A stretch of 64,000 bases of DNA, taken from assembly GCF_006715975.1 (NCBI RefSeq), contig NZ_VFOF01000001.1, positions 1,767,001-1,831,000 on the forward strand, given 5' to 3'. The translations under genes and the position numbers were made by a program. Shown piece after piece: positions 46,693 to 51,175 of the stretch (positions are counted from its first letter, which is position 1; every line of letters begins with the position of its first letter). The notes under the pieces are model-generated. The model saw only the letters and a list, made by a program, of their open reading frames with translations. It ran no database searches and had not been told where the DNA came from. The DNA comes from Zymomonas mobilis. Lineage in GTDB: Bacteria; Pseudomonadota; Alphaproteobacteria; Sphingomonadales; Sphingomonadaceae.

Positions 46693-48375
46693 ATGGAAAT
46701 AATAGAATTTTTACAGACATTGCTTAAAAGCAGTCCCGAAATTGCCCTATTTTTGGCAATCGCCATTGGTTATTGGTTAGGAAAGCTCCGCTTTGGATCG
46801 TTACAAATCGGAGGCGTTGCGGGTTCTTTATTAGCGGCGGTATTGATTAGCCAGATTGGTATTCATATCGATTCAGGTCTGAAAACCGTTTTGTTTGCGC
46901 TTTTCATTTATGCAGTTGGTTTTCAGAGTGGCCCCCAGTTTTTTAAATCTTTGGGGCGGCAGTCTTTACGCGAAGTGCTGATGGCTTTTGTATTGGCGAT
47001 AAGCGGCCTTGCCACAGTCTTGGCTGTTGCCAAAATATTTCATTTAGACAAAGGCCTTGCTGCGGGTATTGCCGCCGGTGGATTGACGCAATCGGCTATT
47101 ATCGGAACCGCCAGTTCTGCATTGGAAAAGCTGGGATTACCCCTTGCCCAGACCCAATTATTGCAGGGGCATGTCGCGGTTGGATATGCGGTAACCTATA
47201 TTTTCGGTTCGCTGGTGCCGATTATTATCTGCGTCAATATTCTGCCATGGCTGACCAAGAAAACTATTCGTGAAGACGCATTGAATGCCGAAGCTGCACA
47301 GATGCAAGGTATTCCCGTTTATGGAGAGGGTGAACAACCAGCCCTTCCCGAATTTGTCAGTCGTGTTTATCGGGCGACCAAAGCAGGACAGTCTGTTCAA
47401 CAGATTGAAAGCGCCCATGTGACGGTTGAGCAGATTCGTCGTCAGAACAACATTCTAGGTATCTCGCCAGAGTTTACGATTGAGCCGGACGATCTGGTTC
47501 TTCTTTTCGGGCATCGGGCTGATGTCATTGCGACCGGCACATCCTTAGGTGAAGAGATACAGCATCCACATGATATGGATGTCGTGATTGTTCGCCATGA
47601 TGTCGTTTTAAGCAACAAGGCCTTTACCGGAAAATCGGTATCTGAATGTGGACATTTATTATCGGCGTCCACCCGTCATGGGGTTTATTTTCTGGATCTG
47701 AAACGTGCAGGAAAAACCTTGCCGATGACGCTCGATCTCCATGTCTTGGCCGGTGACATCGTCACGCTATATGGCAATCGCCAAGATGTTGATCGGGTGG
47801 CCAAACAGTTAGGCGCTATCCTTAGCACAAGCATCAAGACCGACCTTGTTTTTCATGGTTTCGGGCTGGTCGTCGGATTGTTGATCGGTCTGATCGTTGT
47901 CAGATTCGGTTCGATTCCTTTGACATTAGGCAGCGGCGGCGGCGCGCTTCTCTCTGGTCTGTTTTTTGGCTGGTATCAGAATCGCCATAGCAGAACGGGT
48001 AATCTGCCAATGGCCGCATCGACTTTGTTGGTTGATCTCGGTTTGTCCGGCTTTGTCGCGGTGACGGGTCTTCAAACAGGACAACAGGCGGTCACGACTA
48101 TCATGCAGCAAGGCATTACCTTGTTTATGCTGGGTATCGTGGTTTCTGTTCTGCCCTTGGTTATTACCATGCTGTTTGGACGTTACGTCCTGCATTACGA
48201 CAATACCGCTGTTTTTGCCGGTGCGCTCGCAGGTTCCAGAAGTGCCAATCCTGCCTTGGGTGAAATCCTGAACAAAGCTGGGAACGCCGTTCCCACAACC
48301 TCTTTCGCCATAACCTATGCCATCGCCAACGTTCTTCTGACTTTGTTGGGGCCGCTGGTTGTTGCGTTTTCCTAA
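46693..48375 (+). CDS. aspT: Aspartate:alanine antiporter (AspT family)
   Basis: This 560-residue membrane transporter of the AAE family has five hydrophobic segments at the N-terminus (ALFLAIAIGYWLGKL, then LFALFIYAVGFQSGPQFFKS), a cytoplasmic pair of RCK_C/TrkA_C domains (residues about 205-385), and a second membrane block (GLVVGLLIGLIVVRFGSIPL, then VFAGALAGSRSANPALGEIL). It exchanges aspartate for alanine, which is electrogenic. It is followed 30 bases later by aspartate 4-decarboxylase. The start could be GTG at 46690 or ATG at 46693. Confidence 0.9.
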   Translation: MEIIEFLQTLLKSSPEIALFLAIAIGYWLGKLRFGSLQIGGVAGSLLAAVLISQIGIHIDSGLKTVLFALFIYAVGFQSGPQFFKSLGRQSLREVLMAFVLAISGLATVLAVAKIFHLDKGLAAGIAAGGLTQSAIIGTASSALEKLGLPLAQTQLLQGHVAVGYAVTYIFGSLVPIIICVNILPWLTKKTIREDALNAEAAQMQGIPVYGEGEQPALPEFVSRVYRATKAGQSVQQIESAHVTVEQIRRQNNILGISPEFTIEPDDLVLLFGHRADVIATGTSLGEEIQHPHDMDVVIVRHDVVLSNKAFTGKSVSECGHLLSASTRHGVYFLDLKRAGKTLPMTLDLHVLAGDIVTLYGNRQDVDRVAKQLGAILSTSIKTDLVFHGFGLVVGLLIGLIVVRFGSIPLTLGSGGGALLSGLFFGWYQNRHSRTGNLPMAASTLLVDLGLSGFVAVTGLQTGQQAVTTIMQQGITLFMLGIVVSVLPLVITMLFGRYVLHYDNTAVFAGALAGSRSANPALGEILNKAGNAVPTTSFAITYAIANVLLTLLGPLVVAFS

Positions 48376-48405
48376 ATATTTTTACCTGATGAAGAAGTAG
48401 ATATA

Positions 48406-49998
48406 ATGACTACCGATTATTCAAAATTTAAAAATCTTAGTCCGTTCGAACTGAAAGATGAACTTATCCGCATTGCTTCCAGCCGGACAGATCGCCTGAT
48501 GCTGAATGCGGGGCGTGGCAATCCGAATTTTTTGGCAACCCTGCCCCGCTCAGCCTTTTTTAGCCTTGGGCAATTTGCAGTTGCAGAATCCGAGCTGTCT
48601 TTTTCTTATATGACAGTTGGTGTTGGCGGTCAGGCGCGGGTCGAAGGTATCGAACAACGCTTTGAACGCTTTATCAGCGAAAATCGGCAGCAAGAAGGTG
48701 TCTTTTTTCTAGGCAGAGCCCTTAGCTATGTTCGGGATCAGATGGGGTTATCCGCATCTCAATTCCTTCATGAAATGGTTGAAGGGATACTCGGTTGTAA
48801 TTACCCGACCCCGCCACGGATGTTGTCTTTGAGCGAACAGATTGTGGGTCAATATATTCTGAGAGAAATGGTGGGGAGCGATCTTCCGACCGATTCTACC
48901 GACTTCTTTGCGACCGAAGGCGGCACGGCTGCCATGGCCTATATCTTCAATTCATTGAAGCAGAATAACCTTATCAAAAAAGGGGATAAAGTAGCAATCG
49001 GAATGCCGATTTTCTCCCCCTATATCGAGATTCCTCAATTAGAAGAATATGGATTGGAAGAGGTCGCCATTCAGGCCGATCCTGATCTTAATTGGCAGTA
49101 TCCCGATCATGAATTGGAAAAGCTGAAAGATCCGGCGGTTAAAATCTTCTTCTGCGTTAACCCCAGCAATCCGCCTTCTGTAAAAATGGACGATGCTTCG
49201 CTGAAGAAAATTGCGGATATTGTTGCCAAAGATCGGCCTGATCTTATGATTTTGACCGATGATGTGTACGGCACCTTTGCTGATGATTTCCATTCGCTTT
49301 TTGCGGTTTGCCCCCAAAATACGATCCTTGTTTATTCTTTCTCTAAATATTTTGGTGCGACAGGTTGGCGTTTAGGGATAATTGGCACCCATAAAGCCAA
49401 TATTCTGGATGGTCTTATCCAAGCTTTGCCGAATGAGAAGAAAGAAGCCCTGTCCCGCCGCTATTCAAGTCTGACGACGGATGCTTCCAGTCTGAAATTT
49501 ATTGATCGACTGGTTGCGGATAGTCGTGCGGTTGCACTTAACCATACGGCTGGAATTTCAACACCTCAGCAGGTTCAGATGGTATTGTTTTCCTTGTTTG
49601 CCCTGATGGATGGCAAGGGAGATTACAAAGATACTATCAAAAGCGTTATTCGCCGCCGTGAAGCGGCTTTATATCGTGAACTGGGCGTAAAGCCTTCGGA
49701 AGATGCCAACGCCGTTGATTATTATACGCTTCTTGATCTGGAAAGCATTTGCCATTCTCTCTATGGAGAGAAATTCGCAAAGTGGATGACAAATCGTTCC
49801 AGCCCTGCCGAAATGCTGTTCCGCATCGCAGATGAGACAGGCATCGTGTTGTTACCCGGAGAAGGTTTTGGCGTAGAAAAACCGGCAGCCAGGGCTTCGC
49901 TCGCCAATTTGAGCGAATACCAATATGTGGCTATCGGGCGCTCGCTTCGTAAGCTGGCTGATGAATATTATCAGGAGTTTTTGAAAGCCAATATCTGA
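48406..49998 (+). CDS. aspD: Aspartate 4-decarboxylase (bifunctional aminotransferase)
   Basis: This 530-residue fold-type I PLP enzyme decarboxylates L-aspartate to L-alanine and CO2. [18 protein letters not shown] near the N-terminus, [32 protein letters not shown] and the PLP-lysine motif [19 protein letters not shown] (Lys314) fit the family, which is longer than ordinary aspartate aminotransferases. Consumption of a proton inside the cell, coupled to AspT exchange, generates proton-motive force. It is co-directional with and close to aspT, almost certainly in one operon. Confidence 0.93.
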
Positions 49999-50065
49999 TT
50001 CAGAACACGCCGGAGCAATATTCCACTTCATCATGTTGGAAGTTAGTTTAATAGGGGCTCAAATA

Positions 50066-51175
50066 ATGATCTTCAAAATGCCCGTTAAGGCCATTTCTTC
50101 GACGATGGCCCTGGCAATTTGCATGACGATGGGATCTGCTCCGGCAAAGTCTATGAACAACAGTAATATTAATACAGCCCATGCCTTACCGCGTATTCTG
50201 GTCTTGGCAACGGGCGGCACTATTTCCGGTAAAAAAAATGAAATGTCAGCCATCGGCTATAATGCCGGTGGTGTGACAGGTCAGCAGCTTATCGAAGATA
50301 TCCCCGAATTGAGTAAGCTTGCTCAAATTAATGTTGAGCAGATTGCCAATATCGGTTCTCAAGATATGAATGATGATATCTGGTTACGGTTAGCAAAACG
50401 CATTCAAGAAGTCGTTGCGCGTAACGAAGCTGATGGAATTGTTATCACCCATGGCACAGATACCATGGAAGAAACGGCGTTTTTTCTGGATAATGTGATC
50501 CATACGGACAAACCGGTTATCCTTACCGGTGCTATGCGCCCCAGCACGGCGATTAGCGCCGATGGCCCCGGCAATTTATATGAAGCAATAGAAGTCGCAA
50601 CAAACGCAAAAGCCAAAGGGCATGGGGTTATGATTGTCATGAATGACACCATTCATTCCGCCCGATGGGCCAGCAAAACCCATACAACCTCGGTTGAGAC
50701 ATTTCAGTCAATCAATGCGGGGCCTATTGGTTATGTTGATCCGGCTTCTGTCCGTTTTGTTCAGCCGCCCATGCTGATGGATAAGCGGTATCCCATTCCG
50801 GCAGCAGCCCCTTTGCCGCGTGTAGAAATCCTCTATGCCCATAGCGGTATGGGTGCCTCGATCATCAATGACTTGGTCAAAGATGGCGTGAAAGCGATTG
50901 TTCTCGCCGGTGTCGGTGATGGCAATAGTTCAAAGCCTGTTATAGACGCGCTTAATAGAGCGGTGAAACAAGGCGTCATAGTGGTTCGGTCATCAAGAAC
51001 AGGCTCTGGCTTTGTGAACCGCAATGTAGAAGTCGATGACGACAAAAACAGTTTTGTTGCCTCTTATGATTTATCACCACAGAAATCCCGCATTCTTCTT
51101 CAGATTTTGATCTCGAATGGCAAAACTAAGCCTTCTGAGATTCAGACAGCCTTTGAATCGGGTTTTGAGAATTAG
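50066..51175 (+). CDS. ansB: Exported type II L-asparaginase
   Basis: This 369-residue periplasmic hydrolase releases ammonia and aspartate from asparagine. It has a signal peptide (residues 1-29, ending MGSAPAKS). The catalytic threonines lie in LATGGTISGKKNEMS and ITHGTDTMEETAFFL, and TGAMRPSTAISADGP and SSRTGSGFV complete the active site and flexible lid. The ATG at 50066 is 8 bases after AGGGG. It begins 67 bases after aspD, so its product aspartate would be taken up directly by AspT. Confidence 0.93.
   Translation: MIFKMPVKAISSTMALAICMTMGSAPAKSMNNSNINTAHALPRILVLATGGTISGKKNEMSAIGYNAGGVTGQQLIEDIPELSKLAQINVEQIANIGSQDMNDDIWLRLAKRIQEVVARNEADGIVITHGTDTMEETAFFLDNVIHTDKPVILTGAMRPSTAISADGPGNLYEAIEVATNAKAKGHGVMIVMNDTIHSARWASKTHTTSVETFQSINAGPIGYVDPASVRFVQPPMLMDKRYPIPAAAPLPRVEILYAHSGMGASIINDLVKDGVKAIVLAGVGDGNSSKPVIDALNRAVKQGVIVVRSSRTGSGFVNRNVEVDDDKNSFVASYDLSPQKSRILLQILISNGKTKPSEIQTAFESGFEN

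Follow-up and report, generated by a model that had tools for sequence, protein, structure and literature searches.

In Tetragenococcus halophilus, a plasmid-borne asp operon encodes the aspartate-alanine antiporter AspT and the aspartate 4-decarboxylase AspD, which together form a proton-motive metabolic cycle (PMC9508256). The exchange catalyzed by the Tetragenococcus antiporter was reported to be electrogenic (PMC9508256), and the title of a cited work assigns its residue R76 a role in transport. In Zymomonas mobilis, ZMO1682 was described as forming an operon with ZMO1681 that was proposed to provide proton-motive force (PMF) and ATP for acetate tolerance, and ZMO1682 was the sole gene raised by acetate across all three media (Yang 2014, PMC4189746). 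A Z. mobilis asparaginase was reported to be periplasmic, with a Km of about 15 μM and a predicted 29-residue N-terminal signal peptide (PMC4890785). The present analysis concerns a 64,000 nucleotide stretch of a Z. mobilis genome (contig NZ_VFOF01000001.1, positions 1,767,001 to 1,831,000), referred to below as the window, in which aspT, aspD and ansB, a gene for a type II L-asparaginase, lie in tandem on the forward strand. The three genes match ZMO1681, ZMO1682 and ZMO1683 by annotation and order. ZMO1681 and ZMO1682 very probably correspond to aspT and aspD of the window, and the gene after ZMO1683, ZMO1684, is annotated as a phosphoserine aminotransferase, paralleling the serC gene found here.

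We consider it probable, at roughly 0.57, that the three genes constitute a single asparagine-fed aspartate/alanine decarboxylation cycle, shared as an accessory module with acetic acid bacteria. The aspT-aspD pair and its PMF and acid interpretation are already known in Z. mobilis (2014, PMC4189746), as is the periplasmic asparaginase (PMC4890785). What appears to be new is the extension of the pair by a putatively exported asparaginase, the block of approximately 5.2 kb that carries the genes, the relatives in Acetobacter and on plasmids, and the recurrence of the arrangement elsewhere. No publication joining all three genes was found in searches that left supplements and subscription papers out of scope; within the same scope, ZMO1683 was not named alongside ZMO1681 or ZMO1682 in any of the three papers found by locus tag, and the sole match for asparaginase together with alanine antiporter was a Francisella strain gene list. 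ZMO1683 does not occur in PMC4189746, nor are asparagine feeding, Acetobacter relatives or plasmids mentioned there. ZMO1683 was consistently raised in an acetate-tolerant mutant (PMC4033097), a paper in which neither ZMO1681 nor ZMO1682 occurs, and the antiporter gene ZCP4_1481 was raised (log2 +2.0, RNA-seq) in a furfural-tolerant strain relative to its parent (PMC8631904).

Arrangement and identity of the three genes

The window was confirmed to hold a three-gene array with a single terminator-like hairpin:

46693..48375, plus strand: aspT, aspartate-alanine antiporter, 560 aa, ATG at 46693 (TIGR03802, Asp-Al_Ex and TrkA_C matches)
48406..49998, plus strand: aspD, aspartate 4-decarboxylase, a pyridoxal phosphate (PLP) enzyme, 530 aa (TIGR03801)
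50066..51175, plus strand: ansB, type II L-asparaginase whose N-terminus carries a signal-like segment (TIGR00520, PF00710, PF17763)
51236..51290, plus strand: terminator-like hairpin with a T-rich tail (fold energy compared with shuffles)

The aspT and aspD genes were adjacent and co-oriented, the layout of an AspT-AspD operon, and were separated by 30 bases (48376-48405). The second gap, between aspD and ansB, measured 67 bases (49999-50065) given an ansB ATG at 50066. The longest ansB open reading frame (ORF) began at 50033, but the matching frames in two other Zymomonas genomes, G001 and G003, favored the MIFK start at 50066, which is probably the correct one; with that start, both gap lengths given in the original prediction were borne out. 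The strong terminator that it had placed after the third gene was also found. The hairpin had a fold energy of -22.6 kcal/mol (z -5.5), was equaled by none of 200 shuffles and was followed by a T-rich run, and another hairpin-plus-T stretch, judged by eye, occupied the same place after ansB in G001 and G003. A consensus scan found no promoter-like or terminator-like site within either gap, although it also missed the hairpin at 51236-51290. An RNA family search of the three genes returned no riboswitch or other RNA, the sole match being the leader of the neighboring serC.

All three products scored above the curated cut-offs of their families: AspT at 750.6 bits against the TIGR03802 equivalog (cut-off 546.95), AspD at 815.8 bits against the TIGR03801 equivalog (cut-off 435.1), and the asparaginase at 399.5 bits against TIGR00520 (cut-off 314.3), the type II L-asparaginases. 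Together with the ORFs and the signal-like segment, these matches sustain the predicted order of aspT, aspD and a putatively exported asparaginase on one strand. AspD aligned over its full length to 3fdd_A, with an identical 14-residue stretch around the PLP-lysine. The asparaginase stretches ATGGTI and THGTDT, which we take to be the catalytic Thr and Thr-Asp sites, matched 2wlt_A. AspT aligned to the solved AspT chains over two stretches, and the position of Tetragenococcus R76, in transmembrane helix 3 (TM3), was occupied by Gln (Q78, codon 46924-46926) instead of Arg. Among 84 rows, the equivalent residue was Glu in 69, Gln in nine, Asp in two, Gly in two, Arg in one and Thr in one. Because Arg at this position is no general family marker, membership of the AspT family was judged from the sequence match. 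Gln was present in all nine full-length rows from acetic acid bacteria and Zymomonas; it was also found in an Acetobacter locus having only aspT and aspD (L037), so the residue appears to track lineage and not the presence of an asparaginase.

The N-terminus of ansB was signal-like by hydropathy and by eye, as were those of all 15 linked asparaginases examined. Since the host genome (G000, 2.10 Mb in 7 contigs) has only one PF00710 gene, the published periplasmic Z. mobilis asparaginase is most likely the product of ansB. In comparisons of the window with G001, the nonsynonymous and synonymous divergences (dN/dS) were 0.097/1.15 for aspT, 0.050/1.70 for aspD and 0.112/1.52 for ansB, with dS near saturation; the low dN relative to dS indicates that all three genes are under purifying selection.

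A discrete block and its relatives

The order and strand of the three genes were kept in G001 and G003, and the linkage was present in three of the four Zymomonas genomes. The fourth, congener G002, lacked matches of this type to AspD, asparaginase and Asp-Al_Ex; it retained both flanking genes, serC and the extensin-like gene, about 0.3 kb apart. By blastn, homology to this intergenic stretch of G002 ended near 46280 and restarted near 51487, leaving approximately 5.2 kb in the window opposite about 0.1 kb of unmatched sequence in G002. The block and the features around the genes were:

46281..51486, no strand: block without counterpart at the corresponding G002 site, limits approximate (blastn)
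45570..46232, minus strand: extensin-like protein gene, left neighbor and block flank (PF06904; in all four genus genomes)
46626..46655, plus strand: promoter-like site before aspT (TTGATA, 18 bases, GATAAT; 10/12 matches), weak evidence
51566..51618, plus strand: serC leader RNA, part of the right neighbor and not of the three-gene array (RF00517, 39.8 bits; gathering 35)
51623..52783, plus strand: serC, phosphoserine transaminase, right neighbor and block flank (TIGR01365, 611.5 bits; in all four genus genomes)

Promoter-like sites were found by the consensus scan at the chance level (15, compared with 13.5 in shuffles, standard deviation 3.4). No AspD scored above the cut-off in the 31 other genomes of the family or the 24 other genomes of the order. 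Because the genes are present in three of the four genus genomes while AspD is absent from these others, the distribution suggests that the block was acquired by Zymomonas; alternatively, it may have been acquired at the level of the genus and then lost in G002. Foreign base composition was considered as a sign of recent transfer and rejected, the GC content of the three genes being 0.46-0.49 against 0.468 for the window.

The three-gene linkage in this lineage had been thought worth noting; it is not peculiar to the lineage, as it was also found in nine of 49 Acetobacter-group genomes, on two plasmids of acetic acid bacteria, in Bradyrhizobium sp. U87765 and in the genome designated G673. In the genus group of Acetobacter syzygii, 34 of the 49 genomes had AspD and 16 had a type II asparaginase. 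In nine genomes (G452, G456, G476, G477, G481, G491, G492, G493 and G495) the three genes were adjacent on one strand, with aspT preceding aspD in every case. Among the best 80 of 337 loci with AspD relatives, a selection that under-samples distant loci, 77 had an aspT match and three had an asparaginase within the flank: those of Zymomonas sp. W26 (L032), A. syzygii (L034) and Bradyrhizobium sp. U87765 (L109). Four A. okinawensis loci (L162, L166, L033 and L035) had a Zymomonas-like aspD without any match to aspT in the flank retrieved, and an A. okinawensis asparaginase gene (L206 4463-5514) was a decayed copy, in two pieces in different frames.

The plasmid loci came from two of the 69 plasmid records with AspD. 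In the Acetobacter sp. AC2005 plasmid (L202 2354-9888), aspT, aspD, the asparaginase gene and a fourth gene, g4, lay between two inverted copies of an element of the insertion sequence (IS) family IS5, each of 858 bases and 99.4% identical, an arrangement resembling a composite transposon. A Kozakia baliensis plasmid, from palm brown sugar, had the same gene order, with a decayed aspT frame containing one in-frame stop (L203 3292-4971). A plasmid-borne copy nearly identical to the block was ruled out, as megablast against the plasmid collection gave no match.

The g4 gene is a candidate outer-membrane beta-barrel-like gene. Its match to PF13557 was weak, the AC2005 copy scoring 24.5 bits (cut-off 22) and that of Kozakia 21.4, below the cut-off. 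It adjoined the three genes in all seven acetic acid bacterium loci whose flank was long enough, lying downstream in L202 (7838-8827), L203, L204, L210 and L211, and divergent and upstream in L034 and L209. A lineage-specific fourth gene was rejected for Zymomonas, where g4 was not beside the three genes in the window, L157 or L158; a homologue of 45-47% lay elsewhere in all four Zymomonas genomes (45%, and far from the three genes, for the copy at G000:C1:473953-474870), the G001 copy having one in-frame TGA.

For phylogenetic analysis, rows were kept by length limits and freedom from stops (80 aspT, 137 aspD and 51 ansB), and those used in the trees were picked by hand: 27 aspT, the Kozakia row being dropped for its stop, 38 of the 137 aspD and 25 of the 51 ansB. 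Outside the genus, the Zymomonas genes lay nearest to G481 and A. syzygii by path length in all three trees. This nearness had a support of 92/90 in the ansB tree and a Shimodaira-Hasegawa-like approximate likelihood ratio (SH-aLRT) support of 87 in the aspT tree; in the aspD tree, support (99) was confined to the wider group of acetic acid bacteria plus Zymomonas. Because all three trees give the same nearest Acetobacter, a joint transfer fits; the trees leave its direction undecided. From the distribution, the trees and the plasmids, we infer that the three genes are an accessory module common to acetic acid bacteria and Zymomonas through horizontal transfer.

A close asparaginase was found in 12 of 385 genomes of the class, including this one, and had the partner genes beside it in two of the 11 others. 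The divergent genes of Bradyrhizobium sp. U87765 (L109) and G673 (L228) have the same order as in the window. In G673, aspT, aspD and the asparaginase gene (TIGR03802 632, TIGR03801 746 and TIGR00520 435 bits, all above cut-off) were followed by a second AspT-like gene (374 bits, below cut-off). The G673 asparaginase grouped with unlinked ones on a branch supported at 100/99, so the three-gene order may have been assembled more than once, or may be old and mostly lost. A single clade of linked asparaginases was rejected by the approximately unbiased (AU) test on 22 ansB rows (p 9.9e-12), which was devised after the earlier trees and in which the clade is also broken by unlinked Acetobacter rows that fall within it; the 100/99 branch is the more specific evidence. 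Two AspT-like genes stood beside AspD and asparaginase genes in both G673 (L228 1371-8568) and Bradyrhizobium sp. U87765 (L109 4540-7948), and in G373 (L229 6527-9553) a type II asparaginase gene came directly after an AspT-like gene that scored 523 bits, slightly under the cut-off, with no aspD.

A proposed asparagine-fed cycle and its alternatives

Asparaginases hydrolyze asparagine to aspartate and ammonium, and AspD enzymes consume a proton in decarboxylating aspartate. In the proposed cycle, 1) the exported asparaginase would hydrolyze periplasmic asparagine to aspartate- and ammonium, 2) AspT, by analogy with the Tetragenococcus protein, would import aspartate- and export neutral alanine, so that one negative charge enters the cell, and 3) AspD would decarboxylate aspartate to alanine and CO2, using one cytoplasmic proton. 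The net reaction would be

Asn(out) + H2O + H+(in) -> Ala(out) + CO2 + NH4+(out)

and the charge moved would support the PMF. The three genes thus probably turn external asparagine into alanine while removing internal acid. A swap of neutral asparagine for neutral alanine moves no charge, so deamidation would have to occur outside the membrane. Amide hydrolysis is itself non-neutralizing at pH values of about 4 to 9, where the ammonia takes up the proton of the acid produced; its role would be to make the charged substrate, a reason for an exported enzyme. The asparaginase had been placed upstream of the transporter, which is apt metabolically but not in gene order, ansB being the last of the three. 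Zymomonas has surplus glycolytic ATP, and the benefit is less likely to lie in energy supply than in tolerance of weak acid or pH, the ammonium adding some nitrogen. The predicted PMF and acid function is partly supported, as it fits the families and the published response of aspD to acetate; for aspT-aspD, the idea was already in print for Z. mobilis (PMC4189746).

Several observations weigh against a three-gene cycle: 1) 77 of the best 80 AspD loci lacked an adjacent asparaginase, at least one of them (L103) having less than 200 bases downstream, 2) in the phylum sample, where AspD scored above the cut-off in 18 of 398 genomes including this one, none of the 18 loci of the 17 other genomes had an asparaginase within 1.5 kb while 17 had aspT, 3) the aspD tree resolved only a group of acetic acid bacteria plus Zymomonas (99) and not the nearest Acetobacter branch, 4) a signal-like segment was also present in six of eight unlinked asparaginases, so export is not special to the linked ones, 5) aspartate was down in three groups and the ZMO1682 protein was up, yet alanine, up in one stress group, fell in another (PMC6190654), and 6) ZMO1683 is not listed together with ZMO1681 and ZMO1682 in the passages on expression. 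The fourth point disposed of the idea that linked asparaginases are exported and unlinked ones are not, and for the same reason the distribution does not prove that charge is why the enzyme is exported.

The alternative that survives best, though we think it unlikely, is nitrogen scavenging, in which the asparaginase chiefly frees ammonium, the aspartate is turned to alanine for disposal or use by way of AspT and AspD, and charge movement is a by-product. The reaction does release ammonium, the enzyme is periplasmic and of high affinity (PMC4890785), and nitrogen supply is the better-known role of asparagine use (PMC9145765, PMC3930563). However, the export of one alanine for each aspartate imported yields no net amino nitrogen, and aspD is raised by acetate in each of three media (PMC4189746).

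It is less probable still that aspT-aspD alone is the functional operon and the asparaginase merely a neighbor with its own regulation. The published operon claim is limited to ZMO1681-ZMO1682, ZMO1683 expression was reported separately, most aspT-aspD loci have no asparaginase, and the second gap is longer than the first and is spanned by a hairpin lacking a T-run (-12.9 kcal/mol, a value without shuffle control). Set against this are the linkage in three of four Zymomonas genomes, nine of 49 Acetobacter-group genomes, Bradyrhizobium sp. U87765 and G673, and a second gap in which the scan found neither kind of signal. Adjacency alone is no proof, and ansB was placed elsewhere in the other seven of the 16 asparaginase-bearing Acetobacter-group genomes, some of them draft contigs that end nearby, but a chance neighborhood with no joint function was rejected as the principal explanation and is highly improbable, because same-strand adjacency recurs in Zymomonas, two Acetobacter clades, Bradyrhizobium sp. 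U87765 and G673 with asparaginases that do not form one clade.

A broader and more tentative form of the asparagine-fed cycle, to which we give somewhat less than even odds, is a transferable acid-tolerance module carried by bacteria that ferment plant saps. A periplasmic asparaginase would make the charged substrate, an electrogenic antiporter and a decarboxylase would consume protons and generate membrane potential, and a beta-barrel-like gene would stand beside them in acetic acid bacteria; the module would move on plasmids or IS-bracketed segments, would have reached Zymomonas from a donor resembling an acetic acid bacterium, and its order would have been assembled more than once. If the cycle operates as proposed, a known proton-motive decarboxylation pair gains a feeding enzyme whose need for export is explained, and the asparagine of plant saps is tied to the acid tolerance of ethanol and vinegar bacteria. 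Acetate, to which the first two genes of Z. mobilis ZM4 respond, is a main inhibitor in biofuel hydrolysates.

Comparison with known systems

In E. coli, glutaminase feeds the acid resistance system based on glutamate decarboxylase, and deamidation is cytoplasmic. An amide amino acid would likewise support acid resistance in Zymomonas, but deamidation would be periplasmic and would feed an electrogenic exchanger. The asparagine-based acid resistance of Mycobacterium tuberculosis is similar in that it is also supported by an amide amino acid (PMC3930563). The periplasmic L-asparaginase of Z. mobilis, most likely the product of the genome's single asparaginase gene, was treated as a drug candidate, and the passages cited do not give its neighbors (PMC4890785). 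The ZMO1681-ZMO1682 operon very probably comprises the same two genes as aspT-aspD here, judged by annotation and order, and was assigned the same PMF and acid role, in a text that includes neither ZMO1683 nor asparagine feeding (PMC4189746). The T. halophilus system has the same pair of antiporter and decarboxylase and the same reaction scheme (PMC9508256). The Zymomonas locus differs in having a putatively exported asparaginase after the pair on the same strand, Gln (Q78) in place of R76, and the periplasm of a Gram-negative cell.

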